Shown here one piece after another: positions 7,457-19,569 of a stretch of 64,000 bases of DNA. Source of the stretch: Acidobacteriota bacterium (lineage in GTDB: Bacteria > Acidobacteriota > Terriglobia > Bryobacterales > Bryobacteraceae); NCBI GenBank assembly GCA_016213725.1, contig JACQZS010000135.1, positions 28,030-92,029 of the forward strand, written 5' to 3'. The notes beneath the pieces were generated by a model. The model was not told the origin of the DNA. It did not search any database and saw only the letters and a program-made list of their open reading frames with translations. Within the stretch, counting starts at the first letter, position 1. Each line of letters opens with the position of its first letter. Position numbers and translations under genes: made by a program.

Positions 7457-8328
7457 ACCTCCGGACATTGATCAAAAAGGGCCGCGTAGTCGATCCGCGT
7501 TCCCTTCAATCCTACGTGGAGCATCCGGACGGGCCACGCGCAATCACGCTCGACGGGATCGTTCTGGACGCGATGGACAGAAGCCGGATCCTCGTCAACA
7601 TCCAGAGCGTGATCGACGACGTGTATGCGATGCCAACCGTTGCCGGGGAATGGTCGGTGGCGGCGTTGCTTGAGGAAATCACCACGACACCCAAGGCGCC
7701 GCCCGTACCTCCGTACAAGTTGATGTGGCTCGAGGGCCGCGTCGCGGGCGAGACGCCGGTGGCGCTCATGGTCGAGCGTTTCGACGTGCCGGATGGATTC
7801 CGGGTGGCGTGCCTCGTCTGGGGAACCACGAACACCGCGAATGCGGTCTGTATCGGTTGTGTCGGCTACTCAGTCGACAAGGAGGGCCGCGTCCCGAGGG
7901 ACTCCGTTGTCTACGACCGCTTCACTCACCGGGAGGATTACGCCGTCACGGAGGAGATTGCGGTTCTGACGTGGAACGGCGCTCTCGTGGCCCACAGTCT
8001 CGCCAGGATGAACTGCCGCAACGTCGTCTTGCACGCGATCGCTTCGCCCAAGGTTTCGCGACGCCACCAGCGGGATCTTGTCCCGGCCACGGTGTGGCAC
8101 GAGATCCGGATCACCAGCGTGCCGCAAATCCGGACAACCGGTCGTGGCGTCCTCGGCCGGGATGAATCCAAAATGCGCCGTTTTTGGGTGCGCGGCCATT
8201 ACGCCGACTACCGCAACGGCGTCGGCCTGTTCGGCAATCCCAAGCTGCGCTGCGTCTTCTGGATCCCAGAGCACCAGCGCGGCAACGCGGAACTGGGCGA
8301 TGTGATTCCGGAGTACATGCTGGCGTGA
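7453..8328 (+). CDS. hypothetical element/phage protein
   Basis: ATGA overlap with the helicase stop; 291-aa ORF in the same operon. Confidence 0.65.
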   Translation: MNLRTLIKKGRVVDPRSLQSYVEHPDGPRAITLDGIVLDAMDRSRILVNIQSVIDDVYAMPTVAGEWSVAALLEEITTTPKAPPVPPYKLMWLEGRVAGETPVALMVERFDVPDGFRVACLVWGTTNTANAVCIGCVGYSVDKEGRVPRDSVVYDRFTHREDYAVTEEIAVLTWNGALVAHSLARMNCRNVVLHAIASPKVSRRHQRDLVPATVWHEIRITSVPQIRTTGRGVLGRDESKMRRFWVRGHYADYRNGVGLFGNPKLRCVFWIPEHQRGNAELGDVIPEYMLA

Positions 8329-8352: not shown

Positions 8353-9726
8353 ATGCCTCGGAATGAAGTTAGCCTTCAGGCCCTGACTGGAGGCGTCAAG
8401 GTGAAACGGCGGGTACAGCATCCGAAGATTCACGAACGAAAGGACCGTGGAAGTTACTACTGGTTCTTCCGCTACTACGCCGACGAGATTCAGAGCGACG
8501 GTTCCGTGAAGACCTCCAGGAAGTTCCACATGCTGGGCCCCAGTCGTGGCGAGAACGCGATCGGCAAACGTGAGGCGGAGATCGAGCGCGACAAGTTCCT
8601 CGCCAAGCTGAATGCTCCAACGCAGGAAGCCGCCGTCGAACAAGTCCTGGCGACGGGGATTGCACTGTTCGGCGAGATCGCGAAGATGTACGAAGAGGGC
8701 TACCTCAGCCGCGAACACCAGATCAGCGTGGCGACCAGGGCCAAGGAGCTGTTCTACCTCCACAAGTACCTGATACCGCGGTGGGCCAAGTGCCGCCTGA
8801 ACGAAATCAAACCCAAGGCCATCGAGGACTGGCTTCACACGACGTTCGACTCCTGGTACAGCATGCACGGCGTGCGCAACATCATGAGCCGGATCTTCTA
8901 CTACGCCGAAGGCCACGGGCTTTGGGAAGAGGGCAAACGCAGTCCAGCCAGCCGAGCCAAGCTGGGCCGGAAACGGTACGCGTTCGAGCGGCGCATCCTG
9001 ACTTTCGAGGAGACCGCAGGGGTGTTGGCTCGGATGGACGAGCCCAACAAACTCATCCTCGAAACCTGCATCGCCACCGGCGCGCGCATCTCCGAGGTCC
9101 TTGGCCTGCAGTGGAAGCACGTGAACCTGGATGCCGGGACGGTCAAGATCGAACAGCGCGTCTGGCATCAGCATGTCGGCCGCCCAAAGACCGAAAACAG
9201 CCGGCGCGTGCTGGGTATCGGGTATCTGGCCGAGCGGTTTCGCGAAAGGGCCGCGGCCGAACGTGCCAAACCCGAGGGTTGGGTCTTTCATCAGAAGTGG
9301 GCCCCGGACAGGCCAATGTGGGATTCGGCGGTCCGCGACGCGCTCCACCAGGCGGCGCGCGTGGAAGGTTGCGATTTCAAAGGCCTGGGACCTCACTCCT
9401 TCCGCCGCGCCAACATCACGTGGCGGCAGGAGGTCGGCGGCAGCGCCATCGAGGCGTCCAAGATCGCCGGTCACTCCAGCCTGGAAATGACGAGCGAGTA
9501 CACCTTCGTGGCGCCGGAACGCCAGAACGAGCTGACTCGCCGCATCCAGGAGAGACTGGCAAACGCCGCCGCCAAGCCCGAGAAGACGACGACGGTCGAG
9601 GCGCCGCCTCCGGAACCGCCGCCACCACCGCCAGCAGCTCCGCCGCCCGCAACGGCGCCCACCCCAACGCCAGAGGCACCGCCCAGCCTGCTCGACACCT
9701 TGCAGGTGACGACGTTGGTGCAGTAG
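8353..9726 (+). CDS. tyrosine recombinase/integrase
   Basis: ETCIATGARISEVLGLQWKHVNL (R box), HSFRRANITW (HxxR), GHSSLEMTSEYTFV (H...Y); Pro-rich C-terminal tail. Confidence 0.92.
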   Translation: MPRNEVSLQALTGGVKVKRRVQHPKIHERKDRGSYYWFFRYYADEIQSDGSVKTSRKFHMLGPSRGENAIGKREAEIERDKFLAKLNAPTQEAAVEQVLATGIALFGEIAKMYEEGYLSREHQISVATRAKELFYLHKYLIPRWAKCRLNEIKPKAIEDWLHTTFDSWYSMHGVRNIMSRIFYYAEGHGLWEEGKRSPASRAKLGRKRYAFERRILTFEETAGVLARMDEPNKLILETCIATGARISEVLGLQWKHVNLDAGTVKIEQRVWHQHVGRPKTENSRRVLGIGYLAERFRERAAAERAKPEGWVFHQKWAPDRPMWDSAVRDALHQAARVEGCDFKGLGPHSFRRANITWRQEVGGSAIEASKIAGHSSLEMTSEYTFVAPERQNELTRRIQERLANAAAKPEKTTTVEAPPPEPPPPPPAAPPPATAPTPTPEAPPSLLDTLQVTTLVQ

Positions 9727-9960: not shown

Positions 9961-12819
9961 ATGCTGATTCTGCTCTCCTTCACAGAAGCTGCTGAGCGTC
10001 TGGGTATCCATCCTGACGAGTGCTTTGAGCTCGTCCAGAACGGCCAGCTGACGCCAATAAGGGTAGATCCGAATTGGTACATCGATGAGCGCGCTGTAGA
10101 AGAACTTCGCCGGAAGCGACAAGCCCCGACTCCAACCGACCCATACGCGATTGCTAATCAGTTCCTGTATCCAAGGACCCGGGCGTATGCTTCACTGACC
10201 AATAAAGAGTTCTCGGACCTTCTAAGCGAAATCAGCTCACTGCCACTCTGCGATACTGCCGAAAAGCGCGCTCAGCTAGAATCGAGCCGGCTTCTCGCAA
10301 GCCTTCCACTGCTCGCGAACGCGATTGGCAGAACCCTCGTGGGGGAGCCTGCCGATGATCGCAGGTCCCTCCACACTCAGAGATTGCGCGGGCTCTGGAG
10401 TGCCTGCGAACGGGTAGCAGGACCGGGACTCGATGGGCGGGGCTTTGCCGCCTTCCTGATCTCGGCATCCAAAGGTATGTCCGATGACCCCACCCTTCTT
10501 GTAGACATTGCCATGGCGGCGCAGAACCACGGCCGCGTTCCCGGCGACTTCGTCTGGAAAGATCCGACCGAGATGGAATCGAACCTCGTTGAGAGTGCAC
10601 GTTACGCAATCCGGAATCAGGATCTCGCATTTCTGAAGCGATGCATTGCCGCCTCAACTTTACTGGGCGTGCGATTTCAATCGGGAACATGGTCGCTCCT
10701 GGCGAAGCACTGCGGCGAAGTGCCCGCACCCGACTCGCTGGAGTGCGTTTGGAGTTCTTCTGCCCCTTCGCACAGCTCGTTTGGCGTACGCGAATGGAGA
10801 GCACTCATCAACGCCGCAGTGGAGTGTGACAACGTTGGTCTGGCTCGATCGATCTTCCTCGAGTGGGAGGCTAATGGGCTGATCGGCGCGAACGCTCTTC
10901 TCGGTGTTATGGCACAAGCATTCAAGGATCTCGGTGATGGGGGCCTCCTAAGTGAGGTCCTTGACCTGGGAGCGAAGGCCAAGGAACTCAGCTCCGCCAC
11001 TTGGGGCAGCTTGTTTAACGCAGCTGGAGATCTCGATGATGAAGGCTCATCTTTGTACAGGCTTTGGACCTCATGCCGCGAGCAAAAGGCCAGCCTCGAT
11101 GCTGGTGCACTGGGATCGTTGGCAGCGGCGAGTGGTACAGCACAACGGGGCGACATATTGACCGAGTGTTGGAATTCAGTAGTCGCATCGGAGGTAGAGC
11201 TGAATGCGATCGCTTGGGGTTCCTTCGCCTCAGCAGCGGGCGAATGCAGCGATGCAGCAATCCTGGAAAAGGTGTTTGAAGCCTGGTCGCCGACGACGGA
11301 CACTCTTCAACGGGGGGAGCACGGGATCTGGGGGTCGTTCTTTCAGGCCGCCGCCACGCTGAAGCGCGCCGACCTGCTACTTTCCTTTTTCGAAAAGCTC
11401 GAATCACTCGTTGATCACACCGTATTGCGGCACCGTGGGACGTTGGACCCCCTTCTTTGGTCGCTCAGTGCGCAACTGGACGACCGTGTTGTCGGCACTC
11501 GGATCCAAGATATGCTCTCAGGTGCAATACTTGACACCGAGCACTGCTTCGATGTTCTGACCTCGCACTCGCCGGCCGCCAGTTGGGATTCCAGCGGCCA
11601 ATTCGAGGGCGCCGCACGTTGCCTAATGCGTTGGCTGATCAACCAGTCGTATCGGTCACCGGAACATTTCATCGAGATCCTAGATCAATTCATCGATAGG
11701 CTATTTCAGATACGCCAAGACCGGACGAGGCTCTGGCATGCTTTAATAAGCCGCTCACAGGAGTCCTACGTCGGATGCCTTAGACGTCGCTGTCTTGAGC
11801 ACCTTGGTCAGAGCTTCTCGTATCTCGATTCCCTGACCCCCACTGAGCTGGTAGCCGAACTCCGCAAAGCAAATAGCGGTGTCGTTGCCCGGATCGTCGA
11901 CTTTCTCCAGACCGGTCTTGCACAGGTTCTTCCTGGCACGGAAAGTCAATGCACGTCACTAGACGACGAGCAGAGAAAAGTGGTCAACTACTTGGTCCAA
12001 AATCAGCGGACTTTCCTGCAGAGCCACGTCCGGGAGGATCCGGCCGCCTTCTTTGAGACTACCTTCAGCCTCGTTCAGTCTGCGAATCTTGCGGCGGTGT
12101 CCTCAAGCATCGCGAGGCACTTTCTCTTCTGTCTCATCCGTGAAATGTCCGCTGCTGTTTGGGAGGAGCTCTTCGAACCATTCCGGAAGGGTGTGCACAG
12201 CGCAAAGAACACTTTTATCCAACAATTCTCAGCCGTGCTTAACAAGGATGACCTGCCGGCACACTTCGCCGAAGAGGTCGCCGCGAACGCCCGCCGCTTC
12301 CTTCGCGACCTGGGCCACGCTTTGCGTGAATCAGCACCGCGCGAAGCGAAGGCCATCAATGTTGCCTTTGATGTACTGGTCCATCTTGTCGGACAGCGCG
12401 GGCGCCTTCCCACCACAAAAATCAACGTTCCGCGTCCTTTCTGTATCGCCGCGTGGGATGGTGCTAAACGCGAGATCATCATCCCGTTGCTTAAGGAGCT
12501 CAGGTCCAATGCCGAGACTGCCCTCCGACGGTTGCCGTCGGATCAGCAATTCTTCGAGGTTTCACTCGGTGAGGCCTCCGGCGAAGAAGAAGGCTACGCC
12601 GTACTGACCGTCGCCAACGCATGGGGTGGTGGCGGCTCAGCGTCAGAGTACTCTACCGGGATCGGACTTGGAGCCATCCAGCGATGGGCAAACCGGTTAG
12701 AGTACAAGGGAAAGATCGGTTTTGCTGTTCCTGATCAGGAGATCCGGACGCAGCAATCGTTTTGGGTGTGGCGCGTCTACCTGCACCTTCCCGAACTCGA
12801 AGCCGAGTCGGCCTTATGA
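9961..12819 (+). CDS. 952-aa protein: N-terminal HTH/excisionase-like, ~35-aa PPR-like helical repeats, C-terminal HATPase_c-like domain
   Basis: N-terminus LSFTEAAERLGIHPDECFELVQNGQLTPIRV..WYIDERAVEEL. Repeats such as ATWGSLFNAAGDLDDEGSSLYRLWTSCREQKASLD (35 aa). C-terminal N-box IIPLLKELRSNAETAL, LTVANAWGGGGSA, and G-box STGIGLGAIQRWANRLEYKGKIGF. Confidence 0.75.
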   Translation: MLILLSFTEAAERLGIHPDECFELVQNGQLTPIRVDPNWYIDERAVEELRRKRQAPTPTDPYAIANQFLYPRTRAYASLTNKEFSDLLSEISSLPLCDTAEKRAQLESSRLLASLPLLANAIGRTLVGEPADDRRSLHTQRLRGLWSACERVAGPGLDGRGFAAFLISASKGMSDDPTLLVDIAMAAQNHGRVPGDFVWKDPTEMESNLVESARYAIRNQDLAFLKRCIAASTLLGVRFQSGTWSLLAKHCGEVPAPDSLECVWSSSAPSHSSFGVREWRALINAAVECDNVGLARSIFLEWEANGLIGANALLGVMAQAFKDLGDGGLLSEVLDLGAKAKELSSATWGSLFNAAGDLDDEGSSLYRLWTSCREQKASLDAGALGSLAAASGTAQRGDILTECWNSVVASEVELNAIAWGSFASAAGECSDAAILEKVFEAWSPTTDTLQRGEHGIWGSFFQAAATLKRADLLLSFFEKLESLVDHTVLRHRGTLDPLLWSLSAQLDDRVVGTRIQDMLSGAILDTEHCFDVLTSHSPAASWDSSGQFEGAARCLMRWLINQSYRSPEHFIEILDQFIDRLFQIRQDRTRLWHALISRSQESYVGCLRRRCLEHLGQSFSYLDSLTPTELVAELRKANSGVVARIVDFLQTGLAQVLPGTESQCTSLDDEQRKVVNYLVQNQRTFLQSHVREDPAAFFETTFSLVQSANLAAVSSSIARHFLFCLIREMSAAVWEELFEPFRKGVHSAKNTFIQQFSAVLNKDDLPAHFAEEVAANARRFLRDLGHALRESAPREAKAINVAFDVLVHLVGQRGRLPTTKINVPRPFCIAAWDGAKREIIIPLLKELRSNAETALRRLPSDQQFFEVSLGEASGEEEGYAVLTVANAWGGGGSASEYSTGIGLGAIQRWANRLEYKGKIGFAVPDQEIRTQQSFWVWRVYLHLPELEAESAL

Positions 12820-14555
12820 CGCCACCCAGTGGGTGTAGAGTCCTTATACTCGATGATGACGTTGGCTACGCACTGCGGGTCGCGGTTGAGTTGACGAAAG
12901 TCGATCCGGTCCTGCTGGGCGGTGCAGTCCTTGAAATCACGCTCTGCAACAACGCCTGTTACATTGCTGAATGCGTGAAGCAGCGTGAGCCTCGCTGGGA
13001 TGTCGTGCTAGGGGACGTCTTCATGTGCAGGCCCAGTCGGACGCCTGCTTCTCCCCGCTCTCCTTCTGTGGTGCCTGTGACTCGGGAGCTAGATGGGCAG
13101 AAGTTCACTTCTCTCGAGTATGACTACCGCTGGAACAAAACATCGGCATCCGCACGCAGCGATGAAGGGGGCTTCCTTGTAGCGGATGCAATCCTTGAGG
13201 CCAGATCCAGTTCCGCGTCGCCGCAGGAGACCACATTGGTGCTGATCTCATCGGTCTTGAGCGGCCGCGAGCGCCGTCGGCTTCATAAGTATCTCTCGGA
13301 ATCCGACGGGTACATCCGATACTTCGACAAGGCCGAGTGGGACACAGCGGGTGGCGGCCCAGTTCTGCTTTCCGCCCGGCTCTTCAAATGGGCACTGGTA
13401 GATGAGATAACCTGGCGATTCTCTCGGCGCTTGGGTGGGCTCCAGCATCCAACCCCGCGGCTGCCGCTACTCGCGACGTCTCCTGCGATGCAGGAGGCTC
13501 AAGTTCGGGCGGCGCGGCTGGCCGCAGATCGCAGTGTCAGGACGATTTTCATATCAGGTCCGGTTGGATCCGGAAAGAAGACAATCGCTGCGGACATTGC
13601 CTTTCGCCGCTGTCAGCTCCTAGCTGGCTCGCCCAGGGTGCTTTCCATCGTCGCACGAGGGTTGGATGTTGAGAAAGTGAGAGCCGAAGTTTCCGCCGCT
13701 GCACTTCCAACTGTTCTGTCGGTCGATGAGATCACGGAGTTGTCGCCGACGGCGCAGCTCAAGTTGGAGGAACTTGTTACAGGCGCGGGCACCTTGGTGG
13801 AATTGGCATTGCTTTTATCTCGCCACCAGGTCGGTTACCTGAAGAAGCTTTGTGAACAGGGGCTCCTGCTGGATGTGTGGCTGAAGCGCGCCATTTCTGA
13901 TTTCATCGTTTTGCGGCCACTTGAAGAACGGCGCGAGGACATTACCGCTCTGGCGTCTGCTGTGGCTTGGTCTGTGCGCCCAGGTCTTTCTCTGAGCAGC
14001 GACGCTCTTGACTGGTTGCAAGAGCGAAGTTGGCCACTCAACGGAGCTCAGTTAGCCGCCGTCGTTAACGATGCTTCACGGATGTGTGCCGCGGCGATTG
14101 TTAACGCCACCGACGTTTCCGAGGCGTATCGCAGGGTCGCACTGGAACTGAATCTACCCACTAACGTGGACGCGGGTCCCGCTTCGGCTTTTGCGGCATT
14201 AACGGCGCCGGGACGAAAGCGTCGCACTGCCGAGGAGAAGCAGGCGATTATTGACTTCCACAGAAGAGTCAACCAGGAAATCCGCGAGTTGGCGAGGGAG
14301 TTGAAGTTCAATCACGACTTGACCTTGGACGATCTGCGCCGCATGAAGCCGGATCTGCAACTCTGGCAGATCAGCCAAGCCGACCGGCTGAAACAGATAT
14401 TCGACAGATGGCGCGGTGACCTAAAGAGGAATGCGCGTGTGGATGTTGCTGAAATTGTTGACAACATTGTCTTCCCGCTACATGGTCTGACATCCTCCTC
14501 GAACATTAAGAAGTTCAAAAGAGAGTTGCGCCAGTCCAAGCACCCCTCAACATAG
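12816..14555 (+). CDS. REC-like receiver + NtrC-like AAA+ ATPase, non-canonical response regulator
   Basis: RVLILDDDVGYALRV and WDVVLGDVFM (receiver acidic pocket and phospho-Asp), YIRYFDKAEW (conserved Lys). GPVGSGKKTIA (Walker A), VLSVDEITELSPTAQLKLEEL (Walker B), FIVLRPLEERREDI, SSDALDWLQERSWPLNGAQLAAVVNDA (sigma54-AAA C-subdomain). ATGA overlap with the upstream gene. Confidence 0.75.
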   Translation: MTPPSGCRVLILDDDVGYALRVAVELTKVDPVLLGGAVLEITLCNNACYIAECVKQREPRWDVVLGDVFMCRPSRTPASPRSPSVVPVTRELDGQKFTSLEYDYRWNKTSASARSDEGGFLVADAILEARSSSASPQETTLVLISSVLSGRERRRLHKYLSESDGYIRYFDKAEWDTAGGGPVLLSARLFKWALVDEITWRFSRRLGGLQHPTPRLPLLATSPAMQEAQVRAARLAADRSVRTIFISGPVGSGKKTIAADIAFRRCQLLAGSPRVLSIVARGLDVEKVRAEVSAAALPTVLSVDEITELSPTAQLKLEELVTGAGTLVELALLLSRHQVGYLKKLCEQGLLLDVWLKRAISDFIVLRPLEERREDITALASAVAWSVRPGLSLSSDALDWLQERSWPLNGAQLAAVVNDASRMCAAAIVNATDVSEAYRRVALELNLPTNVDAGPASAFAALTAPGRKRRTAEEKQAIIDFHRRVNQEIRELARELKFNHDLTLDDLRRMKPDLQLWQISQADRLKQIFDRWRGDLKRNARVDVAEIVDNIVFPLHGLTSSSNIKKFKRELRQSKHPST

Positions 14556-14856
14556 TCCGATTCGGAACAACAAAATCCCGCCATGGCGGCACAACGCCAA
14601 CGGCCGGTGTTGGTACCCGGCTGGGTGCAAATCGAACCGTCAGTTGAGGCCGGACCGGGCTGACTGCGGAGCTGAGCCCTTCCAGTAGTACCCCTCAGTA
14701 CCCCCAACGTACCCAGAAGTCGTTTTGTTGCATAGCCTTGAAGTACCCCGCCCGCTCCGCCGCACACTGGGCCTGTAAGGACTCCGGCGGAGCCGGGAGC
14801 GGCCGACGGCGTCCCGGTTGAACGCTCCCAAATTCAGAAAAGGGGGTCTGAGGACG

Positions 14857-16077
14857 ATGCCAAACGGATTTGAACAGCTATTGGGTTCCACCTCGCTGTG
14901 GATCTACGTCGCGGTGTTCGGGACGGCAGTCTTAGAGGGTTTCGTGCTGACGACTTTCGCAATCAACGGGACGATCGGGTTTGTCGCGCTCGGCGGCCTG
15001 CTGGCGAAAGGGTACCTCAATCCACCGGCGGTTGTCGCCTCCATCTACTTCGGGACCATGGTGGGCGACGGATTGACCTTTATTCTTTCGACGCGGTTAC
15101 AGCGGATTCGCGCAATCGCTCGACATCAGCGGAGAATTGAAAAATACCGGATGCCGCTCGTGCAGCGCCCGTTCCGGTTCCTTGTGTTGTGCCATCTGAC
15201 GCCGTACCTCAAGGGCGTGAGTGCATTGCTGGCCGGCGGCGTGTTGCCGTGGCGCACGTGGATCCGGGCAGAGGCTGTGGGGGCGTTTTGCGGCACGCTG
15301 CTTTTTACGGGCCTGGGCGCCCTGGGCACCACAGTCGTCCTGAACGCTCGTCACCAGAACGCGGCCAGCGCTTCGTCCGGTTTCGCCGTGCTGGTGGCCG
15401 TGGTGGTGATATGGATGCGCGCGTTGCGGCCCTGCCGGATTGCCGGGATTTGCGAAACCCGGTCGGACCCACGGTTGAGGGGAAGGAACTGGAAACGACT
15501 TTTCTTTGTCGTTTACTACCCATTCTGGAAACCGATCCGAATGGTCGAGGCGGCGCTGCGCCTGTTGCCAACGCGTTCTTGCCGCCCGGACCTCGCGCAA
15601 TCGTTTCCTGACGCCATGCCGGGTGACATCTTTCTCGTTCGGCTACACGCGCCGGCGCCTTGGGGCAAGTGGGCGCACACGGCGATCGCGATCGATCGGG
15701 ACCGTTTCTGTCATGGCTTCGGGAAGGTGATTACTGAACACCAGTTTGACGGTTTCCCCGTGCGGTACACGATCGCGCACCTGCGGGTCAAGTGTACGCC
15801 AGAGGAGGCGGCGCGCGCGGCATCTGCCGCGGCTCAGATGATCGGCAGGCCTGTCTCAATTTTGGCGCGCCCGGGCGACACCTCCAAATTCAGCTGCACC
15901 TCGCTCGCGTGCTACGCCTACTCCTCGGTCGGCATCACGCTGGGCCCGGAGAATACCGGGCGCGTCGTCCCGGACGATCTCTTCCGCTCGCCGCAAGTGG
16001 AATTGATCCGATTGGTCTTCACGGAAGGCCGGATGGAGCGCAAAGGAGCTGATCATGCTGAGCAGCAACTCGTTTGA
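14857..16077 (+). CDS. DedA/SNARE-associated membrane domain fused to permuted papain-like (YiiX/NlpC-type) domain
   Basis: N-terminal multi-TM DedA-like region (AVFGTAVLEGFVLTTFAINGTIGFVALGGLLAKG...FRFLVLCHLTPYLKGVSALLAGG). C-terminal PGDIFLVRLHAPAPWGKWAHTAIAIDRDRFCHGFG...SKFSCTSLACYAYSSVGI. Confidence 0.72.
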   Translation: MPNGFEQLLGSTSLWIYVAVFGTAVLEGFVLTTFAINGTIGFVALGGLLAKGYLNPPAVVASIYFGTMVGDGLTFILSTRLQRIRAIARHQRRIEKYRMPLVQRPFRFLVLCHLTPYLKGVSALLAGGVLPWRTWIRAEAVGAFCGTLLFTGLGALGTTVVLNARHQNAASASSGFAVLVAVVVIWMRALRPCRIAGICETRSDPRLRGRNWKRLFFVVYYPFWKPIRMVEAALRLLPTRSCRPDLAQSFPDAMPGDIFLVRLHAPAPWGKWAHTAIAIDRDRFCHGFGKVITEHQFDGFPVRYTIAHLRVKCTPEEAARAASAAAQMIGRPVSILARPGDTSKFSCTSLACYAYSSVGITLGPENTGRVVPDDLFRSPQVELIRLVFTEGRMERKGADHAEQQLV

Positions 16078-17485
16078 TGCTGAGCGTTGTCAGCACGTCG
16101 CTGAGGGTCTCCGTAGGGTGGGCTACCACCCTGCGGAGGCCGCCGGCGCACGCAGCGCCACGTGGCGCGTCTCACCTAAGCCGCTCACGTTGCCGCACGG
16201 GTACGTCGAGTGGCTCCAAACGCTCGGCCGGCATCTACACGCGTTCAATCGTGCCCTCGACGACCTCTATCTCGATAGTGTGTGTGGGCGCGAGCCGGAA
16301 TGGATCGCTCGCTACCTGGAACAGGGTAAGCCGGAAAGCCTGGTGCGCTACGGCCGGACGCGTCAGGTTAGGAGATCCTGCCCGACAGTCATCAGGCCGG
16401 ATGTCATCCCCACGCCGACGGGCATGTTGATCACGGAACTCGATGCAGTTCCCGGCGGGATGGGGATCATCGCCTGCCTGTACGAGATCTACCGAGCGCT
16501 GGGATTCCACCTTATCGCAGATGACGTACCACTTCCCGGCGCATTTGCAGCCATGGTGGAAGCCGTTGCCGGCGCGGAGGCTCCGCGTCTGGCGATCGTG
16601 GTGTCGGACGAATCCGCCTCGTATCGATCGGAAATGGCGTACTTGGCGGAAAAGCTGACGGAGTATGGTATATCGGCGCGAGCGGTGGCGCCGGAGGATC
16701 TCCGCTACTCCGACTCCAGCGTGGCGGTGGAAGGCGCATCCGGCGAAGTCGAAGTCGATGTGGTGTACAGATTCTTCGAGCTCTTCGACTTGCCCAACGT
16801 CGCCAATGCGGAACTGCTGATGCGGCTCAATGCGAGGAACCGCGTTGCGGTCGTGCCACCGTTCCGTGCGTTCTTCGAGGAGAAACTGGCGATGGGCATG
16901 TTACACCACCCGGTTCTCGCACCTCGATGGGAAAAAGGACTGGGCAACGCAGGATTTACCTTCTTGAAGGAGTGCTTTGCGCCGACGTGGATCCTCGACC
17001 CGGCCCCCGTGCCGCCGTATGCGGCGATTCCGGGGCTCACCGCAGGCGGCGCGGCGGTGAACTCGTGGGACCGGTTGAAAGACCTTGGGCGCAGGCAACG
17101 GGAGTTCGTCATCAAGCCGTCCGGTTTTTCGGAACGCGCCTGGGGGAGCCGCGGCGTGATCGTCGGCCACGACATCTCTACTCCCGAGTGGAATGCGGCG
17201 CTGGAACAGGCGCTCGCCAGTTTCGTGGAGACGCCGCATGTTCTGCAGGAGTTCCGGACGGGCCGGCAGTTCGAGGGCCTGTTCTACGACACAGCCGCCG
17301 GCGCGATGCGCACGATCCCGTGCCGAGCGAGGCTGTCGCCGTATTTCCTCGCAACGGACGAAGATATCAGACTCACGGCCGTAATGGCGACGTTGTGCCC
17401 CCTCGATAAGAAAAAGATCCACGGCATGCCCGAAGCGATTATCGTGCCTTGCGCAGTGGAGGAAACGGACGGTACCGAGCTGTGA
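16055..17485 (+). CDS. ATP-grasp-like ligase (glutathionylspermidine-synthase-like/circularly permuted type suspected)
   Basis: PTGMLITELDAVPGGMGIIACLYEIYR; REFVIKPSGFSERAWGSRGVIVG...FVETPHVLQEFRTGRQFEGLFYD (ATP-grasp-like Lys and Glu motifs). Overlaps the upstream ORF. Confidence 0.6.
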   Translation: MLSSNSFDAERCQHVAEGLRRVGYHPAEAAGARSATWRVSPKPLTLPHGYVEWLQTLGRHLHAFNRALDDLYLDSVCGREPEWIARYLEQGKPESLVRYGRTRQVRRSCPTVIRPDVIPTPTGMLITELDAVPGGMGIIACLYEIYRALGFHLIADDVPLPGAFAAMVEAVAGAEAPRLAIVVSDESASYRSEMAYLAEKLTEYGISARAVAPEDLRYSDSSVAVEGASGEVEVDVVYRFFELFDLPNVANAELLMRLNARNRVAVVPPFRAFFEEKLAMGMLHHPVLAPRWEKGLGNAGFTFLKECFAPTWILDPAPVPPYAAIPGLTAGGAAVNSWDRLKDLGRRQREFVIKPSGFSERAWGSRGVIVGHDISTPEWNAALEQALASFVETPHVLQEFRTGRQFEGLFYDTAAGAMRTIPCRARLSPYFLATDEDIRLTAVMATLCPLDKKKIHGMPEAIIVPCAVEETDGTEL

Positions 17486-18966
17486 ATCTAATCAAGTCAC
17501 TTCCCGCTTCGGCACCACCCGTACTAGTCGCACACCAGCCGTATGAGTATCGGCGCCGACAGGTCGAAGAACCCGATTGGAGGCGCCTGCCGGGGTACGC
17601 ACATGTCTCCCGCACCGAGTGGCGCGATGCTACATGGCAGCGCAGGAACTCCGTCACCAGCGTGACAGGGCTATTAAGCGTCTTCGGCCGCTTTCTTCCG
17701 GCGGATCTCGCACGATCGATCGAAGCCGACCGCAGGCAACTGGCTACGATGGGCATGCGCGTCACGCCACAGGCTCTGAACACGATGGACGAGCGCAATC
17801 TCTGGGACGATCCGATCCGTCGGTACGTGTTGCCGGCCGCCGCTGACCGTGAGCCCGTGTGGCATACTCATCCGGAAGCGCGGCGCGACAGCCTGCGTGA
17901 AACAGAAATGTCGGTGGTCGAGGGGCTGGTATGGCGGTACCCTACGAAAGCCCTCATCGAACTGGCGGCCAGTTGTCCCCTCTACTGCGGCCACTGCACC
18001 CGGATGGACCTGGTGGGTCCGGACGTGCCCGCCGTCACGAAGCGGCGGCTGGGCCTCCGACTGAACGAACGGCTCGATGGCATCTTTTCCTTCCTGGCCG
18101 CCACGCCGTCCATCCGCGACGTGGTGATCTCCGGGGGTGACATCTCGAATGTGTCGCCGGAGCTCCTGGAGGCCTTCGTGACGCGGCTCTTGGCGATCAG
18201 CCACATCCGAAGCTTCCGTCTGGCGACGAAGGCGGTCGTTGCCCTGCCTCAGTACTTTTTCCAGGATTCCGTGCTGCGGACCCTCGAGCGTATCGCGCGT
18301 CGCGCCCGATCGGCGAACGTGGACATGGCCGTTCACACGCACTCGAACCACGTGGCTTCCATCACGCCGCTGGTTTGCGAAGCTGCCGCCAGGCTCTACG
18401 ACGTCGGCATTCCGGTCATTCGCAATCAGGGCGTCCTGATGCGCACAATCAACGATTCGGCCGCCGCGCTGCTCGACCTCTGCTTCGCGTTGCTCGACGC
18501 GTGCCGAATCACTCCCTACTACTTCTATCAGTGCGACATGATCCCGCACGGCGAACACTGGCGTATCTCCCTTCACCAGGCACAGCAGATTCAATCCGAG
18601 ATCATGGGCTATCTGCCGGGCTTCGCCACCCCTAGGATCGTGTGCGATGTCCCGTGTCTTGGCAAACGCTGGGTCCACCAAGCAGAGTCCTACGACCGCG
18701 TGCTTGGCATCTCGTACTGGAGCAAGAATTACTGGACAACGATTGACAACCTGGATGAGGTGGCTCCTACTCAGCACAAGTATCTCTATTTCGATCCGAT
18801 CGTCGAGTTGCCCCCAGATGGCCAGAGGTATTGGGAACTTAAGCAGGAACGCGACGGTCTTGTCGGTTTAGCCGGCGTGGGTGGGGCTTCGAACCGTCAA
18901 CCTCTCGCACGGGCAGAGGACCACGACGGACACAATCAAAAGCAAGGACCTTGGCGCATCCGCTGA
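17482..18966 (+). CDS. KamA-like (lysine 2,3-aminomutase family) radical SAM enzyme
   Basis: EPDWRRLPGYAHVSRTEWRDATWQRRNSV (KamA-type N-terminus); ELAASCPLYCGHCTRMDLVG (CxxxCxxC 4Fe-4S); VVISGGDISNVSPELLE; FYQCDMIPHGEHWRISL. GTG start overlaps the preceding TGA (GTGA). Confidence 0.85.
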   Translation: MNLIKSLPASAPPVLVAHQPYEYRRRQVEEPDWRRLPGYAHVSRTEWRDATWQRRNSVTSVTGLLSVFGRFLPADLARSIEADRRQLATMGMRVTPQALNTMDERNLWDDPIRRYVLPAAADREPVWHTHPEARRDSLRETEMSVVEGLVWRYPTKALIELAASCPLYCGHCTRMDLVGPDVPAVTKRRLGLRLNERLDGIFSFLAATPSIRDVVISGGDISNVSPELLEAFVTRLLAISHIRSFRLATKAVVALPQYFFQDSVLRTLERIARRARSANVDMAVHTHSNHVASITPLVCEAAARLYDVGIPVIRNQGVLMRTINDSAAALLDLCFALLDACRITPYYFYQCDMIPHGEHWRISLHQAQQIQSEIMGYLPGFATPRIVCDVPCLGKRWVHQAESYDRVLGISYWSKNYWTTIDNLDEVAPTQHKYLYFDPIVELPPDGQRYWELKQERDGLVGLAGVGGASNRQPLARAEDHDGHNQKQGPWRIR

Positions 18967-19446: not shown

Positions 19447-19491
19447 TTGGGGTGCAAGAGGTCCCGGGTTCAAATCCCGGCGGCCCGACCA
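19447..19491 (+). other. orphan 3' half of tRNA-Pro(GGG): candidate attachment (att) core
   Basis: TTGGGGT GCAAG AGGTC CCGGG TTCAAAT CCCGG CGGCCCG A CCA: anticodon loop (GGG), 3' anticodon strand, variable loop, complete T arm, 3' acceptor strand, discriminator, CCA. No matching 5' half (CGGGCCG...) upstream. Confidence 0.8.
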
Positions 19492-19539
19492 AACTTCTCA
19501 AAGAGTTACAGACCCCACCACCCTCCCACACCTCCCGCT

Positions 19540-19569
19540 GGAGTCCATTTGGAGTCCAAACGGAGTCCA
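19540..19569 (+). repeat. three GGAGTCCA direct repeats, exact 11-bp period (19540, 19551, 19562)
   Basis: Direct reading: ggagtccattt ggagtccaaac ggagtccacgc. Confidence 0.9.

Follow-up and report, generated by a model that had tools for sequence, protein, structure and literature searches.

A putative two-component-derived sensor/response cassette in the integrase-linked cargo slot of an acidobacterial prophage-type element

The window, a 64,000-nucleotide stretch of DNA from an Acidobacteriota bacterium, contains two translationally coupled genes downstream of a tyrosine integrase. Protein 1 (952 residues; 9961..12819, forward strand) is a putative sensor made up of a HTH, PPR-like helical repeats and a histidine-kinase core, and protein 2 (579 residues; 12816..14555, forward strand) is a putative response protein with a receiver domain, an NtrC-type AAA+ domain and a basic C-terminus. 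We propose that the pair is a mobile two-component-derived sensor/response cassette, in which a kinase would control a receiver-AAA+ switch with anti-phage defense as the net outcome, and we give this reading about an even chance of being right. No relative of the pair was found in the collections searched.

Gene pair and host element

The preliminary description of this DNA had reported two ATGA-coupled ORFs directly behind a tyrosine integrase, and the ORF calls agree in coordinates and overlap. The ATG of the protein 2 gene overlaps the stop of the protein 1 gene (ATGA), and an AGGAG ribosome site stands just 5' of the protein 1 ATG. The integrase of the host element (8353..9726, forward strand) is assigned by Pfam (Phage_integrase, 5e-20) and by phrog_1 (9e-44), and ends 234 bp before the protein 1 gene. 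The GC3 of the two genes amounts to 0.62 and 0.63, as compared with 0.74-0.81 in the replication genes and integrase of the element (integrase 0.80) and 0.73-0.75 in the other cargo genes. Because their matching GC3 is distinct from that of the integrase and of the following cargo, the two coupled genes look like a single acquired unit. It is very improbable that they are mere passengers, decaying or passive, that serve no function today: although a single copy is known and several AAA+ catalytic positions are altered, both frames are full length and translationally coupled, the ribosome site is good, and the receiver pocket is intact.

The pair sits between the integrase and the attR of a prophage-type element. 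The attR (19447..19491, forward strand) is a 3' fragment of tRNA-Pro(GGG) that exactly repeats the intact tRNA-Pro(GGG) located on another contig of the same genome (C24), and related elements have the same fragment downstream of their integrases. Phage-type genes are found 5' of the pair (SNF2 helicase, HNH, primase, UvrD helicase and integrase). On C24, the intact tRNA precedes additional phage genes, a terminase among them. C24 may hold the left end of the present element; close copies of the terminase occur on other contigs of genome G019. Paired TGGAGTCC repeats with similar flanks are observed on the right-hand side of the tRNA-Pro fragment both in the window (positions 19539-19557) and at locus L011 (positions 7622-7640). 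The count of this motif is by itself not above chance; the repeats are possible integrase arm sites and, together with their flanks, give a hint of a second element or remnant adjoining attR.

Other genera contain elements that share the replication genes, the integrase and the tRNA-Pro fragment, and the interval between integrase and attR can therefore be regarded as a cargo slot of variable content. The cargo position assigned to the pair in the preliminary description is supported, and elements with related integrases carry known defense genes downstream. A complete type I R-M system (L111) and a Mrr-type nuclease with a nucleotidyltransferase (L113) lie inside the integrase-attR interval, while BrxF (6e-49, L078), a C5 methylase with Vsr (L084), PD-Lambda-2_C (2e-41, L118) and the candidate defense gene PDC-M41A (4e-69, L117) lie downstream of a related integrase; at some related loci no attR was found, and solely this downstream position is established there. 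A strong PADLOC match was obtained at about 5 of the 25 loci, a figure that comes from a scan of selected proteins and has no background rate behind it. The cargo of one locus, a TonB receptor (L105), is plainly non-defensive.

Several other gene sets were observed in these slots and in the vicinity of the window. In the same integrase-attR interval as the pair, three overlapping genes (14818-18966) encode a VTT-domain protein, a circularly permuted ATP-grasp-like protein and a lysine 2,3-aminomutase-like radical SAM protein. One related element carries a TGT/DpdA-like gene and a DUF5591 gene inside its integrase-attR interval (L079, 14844-18269), possibly a cassette for 7-deazaguanine modification of DNA or RNA. 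Another locus (L082, 9196-12708) exhibits, downstream of a related phage integrase, a kinase with HATPase_c_3 and HATPase_c domains along with a partner whose N-terminus weakly resembles a receiver (E=0.005); PADLOC returned no match for these two proteins, and BLAST indicates that they are unrelated to the pair described here. Upstream on the same contig, left of the window (C59, positions 2707-24995, L012 and L013), lies a DISARM/Druantia-like defense island comprising DrmD, a DrmMI-like protein, a DruE-like helicase, HerA, a methyltransferase and an RmrA-like regulator, with an IS66-like insertion, recognized by eye alone, further left.

The predicted HTH-repeat-kinase protein

The N-terminus of protein 1 had been described as an excisionase-like HTH, which our profile searches recover weakly at residues 4-53 (9970..10119). 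All the hits, of the MerR/excisionase type, are weak: HTH_17 (E=0.0016, below Pfam's cut-off and the sole Pfam find in this protein), TIGR01764 (E=0.012) and PADLOC mad1 (E=1.3e-4). The NCBIfam and PADLOC scans of protein 1 gave matches confined to this HTH part. The weak PADLOC match to mad1 of MADS reflects the HTH alone.

The helical repeats are confirmed as tandem 35-residue helical hairpins covering residues 276-483 (10786..11409). Within residues 201-485, lag 35 tops all lags from 20 to 59 and stands above the best of 500 shuffles. A single-sequence AlphaFold model of protein 1 is confident solely in the repeats (pLDDT about 79-89 at residues 310-440, forming helical pairs), and Foldseek analysis of this model reports designed PPR proteins as the top PDB matches. 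Protein 1 resembles PPR proteins by its 35-residue helical repeats and its best Foldseek matches, but differs from them in that Pfam PPR profiles return nothing at E<=1 and the region is strongly acidic (pI 4.4). Such an acidic pI is unlike that of RNA-binding PPR proteins. RNA sensing by the repeats has been marked down because of this acidity; on this hint from composition, RNA binding by the array is doubtful, and the repeats are no less likely to sense a protein than an RNA. A library search found no report of a PPR-histidine kinase.

The C-terminal part of protein 1 (12163..12816) is predicted to be a histidine-kinase core. An HATPase_c-like domain had been proposed for it, and hhalign against an HATPase alignment built from related genomes agrees with this proposal, with N850 of the N-box and the G2 motif GIGLGAI in register (E=0.002, score 27.9; 300 shuffles reached at most 24.2); a genuine HATPase kinase protein reaches 3e-21 in the same test. 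The domain must nevertheless be considered divergent, since the G1 aspartate is replaced (VANAWG, N886) and Pfam reports no HATPase match. PDB and NCBIfam searches for an HATPase in protein 1 likewise returned no match, and querying the PDB with the sequence of the kinase core yielded nothing beyond chance matches. We would grade the evidence for the predicted domains of the pair as moderate for the HATPase, good for the receiver and strong for the AAA+ domain.

The preliminary description saw no H-box before the ATPase, which is probably wrong. H746 (VHSAKNTF), within VHSAKNTFIQQF and also read in GVHSAKNTFIQQF, is located 104 residues N-terminal to N850, a spacing close to that of ordinary kinases, and its motif can be likened to the H-x-x-K-N boxes of some kinases, such as HELKN in sequences from related genomes. 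With no homologues found, H746 is retained as a candidate phospho-accepting histidine of protein 1. The sensor might instead be a pseudokinase, its GHKL-like fold binding nucleotide or protein alone and signaling to the receiver-AAA+ protein by direct contact, with no phosphotransfer. The weakness of the HATPase match, the change of the G1 aspartate to asparagine and that of the first N-box asparagine to glutamate make this a tentative possibility, against which stand the retention of N850, GIGLGAI and the HxxKN motif at near-ordinary spacing and the fully intact receiver pocket of the partner.

The receiver-AAA+ protein

Protein 2 begins with a receiver domain (residues 7-205; 12834..13430). 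As had been stated for its acidic pocket and its phospho-acceptor D67, the residues D13-D15, D67, S145/S146 and K172 are all in place. The hhalign match of residues 7-205 with a receiver alignment has an E-value of 1.6e-4 when the 44-residue insert (residues 71-114; 13026-13157) is included. Leaving the insert out brings it to 2.8e-6 over 104 columns (score 37.8, shuffle maximum 24.0), a value that is the best of three choices of cut points, the other two giving about 7e-5. The AlphaFold model of protein 2 from one sequence is uninformative (pLDDT 37).

Residues 215-450 (13458..14165) form an AAA+ domain of clear sigma54-activator (NtrC) lineage, as reported by AAA_lid_14 (7e-6), NCBIfam ntrC (1e-7) and the alignment to activators. 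Walker A (GPVGSGKK) and Walker B (VLSVDEI) are kept. The NtrC-like module that had been described thus stands as to its lineage, with the correction that it is devoid of the GAFTGA loop: when protein 2 is aligned with activators from related genomes, an 18-column gap falls exactly over this loop. The finger region reads LLLDVWLKR in place of FREDLYYRL, and sensor II reads WPLNGAQL in place of WPGNVREL; the first finger-region arginine and the sensor-II arginine are both gone. The ensuing basic region (14178..14552, pI 10.5) did not return any significant match in the profile search, and neither this search nor the activator alignment identified a Fis HTH or another recognized DNA-binding domain in protein 2.

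The GAFTGA motif is essential for contact with sigma54, and the natural activators that lack it, HupR, TyrR and DhaR, work through sigma70 (PMC3162934). Because the GAFTGA loop, the finger and sensor-II arginines and the Fis HTH are all missing, sigma54 activation by protein 2 is judged from its sequence to be excluded. A reading of protein 2 as a sigma54-dependent regulator was rejected with the absence of GAFTGA, and no core-genome regulon was found as a context of the pair; neither of the refutations that the preliminary description had allowed for has occurred. Protein 2 resembles HupR, TyrR and DhaR in possessing an NtrC-type AAA+ domain unable to engage sigma54, and HupR also bears a receiver; it differs from them in the outright loss of the loop, in its altered finger region and sensor II, and in having no Fis HTH.

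The main rival of the defense cassette takes these activators as its model. The pair would then be a two-component regulator of transcription that works independently of sigma54, in the manner of HupR, TyrR or DhaR. It would control genes of the element or of the host, for instance those of lysogeny or of the neighboring cargo, and would not itself be an immune effector. We consider this a real possibility that falls well short of an even chance. The AAA+ domain is of NtrC lineage, the use of sigma70 by GAFTGA-defective activators is established (PMC3162934), the C-terminus of protein 2 is basic and protein 1 bears a HTH. However, a regulator sits poorly with protein 2, which lacks a recognized domain for DNA binding. 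Upstream of the pair, neither a clear operator repeat nor a sigma70-like promoter was found, and the changes in the finger region and sensor II suggest that the normal ATPase function of an activator has been lost.

Comparison with known systems and proposed function

The preliminary description had likened the pair to Detocs, a family of three-gene systems in which the best-known effector, a PNP, degrades ATP (PMC11249213). The part of this comparison that stands is a soluble, predicted kinase next to a receiver-bearing response protein, in a mobile or defense context. Membership in Detocs (DtcA-DtcB-DtcC) was rejected on gene count and on the lack of a PADLOC match: there are two genes, the neighbors of which are the integrase and the VTT-domain protein, with no third coupled gene, and an NtrC-type AAA+ domain takes the place of the PNP. 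PADLOC has no defense model covering the key domains of either protein, its models touching the HTH and AAA regions alone. The HEF_HK / Response_reg_2 pairs are likewise adjacent genes for soluble kinase-like and receiver-like proteins, located near R-M systems, with loop extensions in their receivers (PMC8011034). The present pair shares this adjacency and a receiver with a loop extension but has no HATPase_c_3, its response protein is an AAA+ protein, and Pfam PF19191 (HEF_HK) and PF19192 (Response_reg_2) report nothing at E<=1. No toxic or nuclease effector is recognizable in the pair.

Homologues of either protein were absent from the plasmid search, and those of protein 1 from the phage search. 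Neither exact peptides of both proteins nor the kinase core, searched under the guidance of an alignment of artificial variants, retrieved a relative from IMG/VR, nor did exact peptides retrieve one of either protein from 85,488 species genomes; such exact-peptide scans are estimated to overlook the majority of relatives that share less than about 75% identity, and "none found" does not amount to "unique". No relative of protein 1 was found in 101 related, 400 class and 297 phylum genomes, and none of protein 2 in 400 class genomes or of its receiver in 300. Where the homologue searches yielded anything, it was ordinary sigma54 activators or borderline matches of a receiver-like or HTH kind.

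We infer for the cassette a phosphotransfer, a cue, an output and a defense role, the last being plausible in a prophage slot of this kind. The PPR-like array of protein 1 would sense a cue, most likely phage infection, and protein 1 would autophosphorylate, with H746 as the best candidate. The phosphate would pass to D67 in the receiver of protein 2, switching the NtrC-derived AAA+ domain, now freed from sigma54, and the AAA+ protein may work by way of its basic C-terminus. Anti-phage defense by the prophage or its host would be the probable outcome. This mechanism is supported by the location of the pair and the architecture of the two partners. The defense reading draws on the coupled genes of matching composition, their place within the integrase-attR interval, the intact receiver residues, the HATPase motifs in register, the defense cargo of related elements and the DISARM/Druantia-like island upstream. 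Against it count the non-defensive cargo of the slot (the TonB receptor of L105 and the VTT, ATP-grasp and aminomutase-like genes here), the lack of homologues and hence of conservation in support of H746 or of the pairing, the weak HATPase match with N886, the lack of a PADLOC model for the key domains of either protein, and the lack of a recognizable toxic or nuclease effector. A bolder version is unlikely, namely a novel class of anti-phage two-component system in which a cytoplasmic kinase reads a phage-made protein or RNA via the PPR-like array and phosphorylates a repurposed NtrC receiver-AAA+ protein, the basic C-terminus serving directly as the effector, with nucleic acid or the replisome as its target.

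If the defense role is confirmed, immunity derived from two-component systems would extend past Detocs to a response protein that is a sigma54 activator without sigma54 contact, and to a histidine kinase with PPR-like repeats. The integrase-linked cargo slot, carried by a prophage family that is present in many genera of the bacterial family to which the host belongs, is a place in which to seek more systems.
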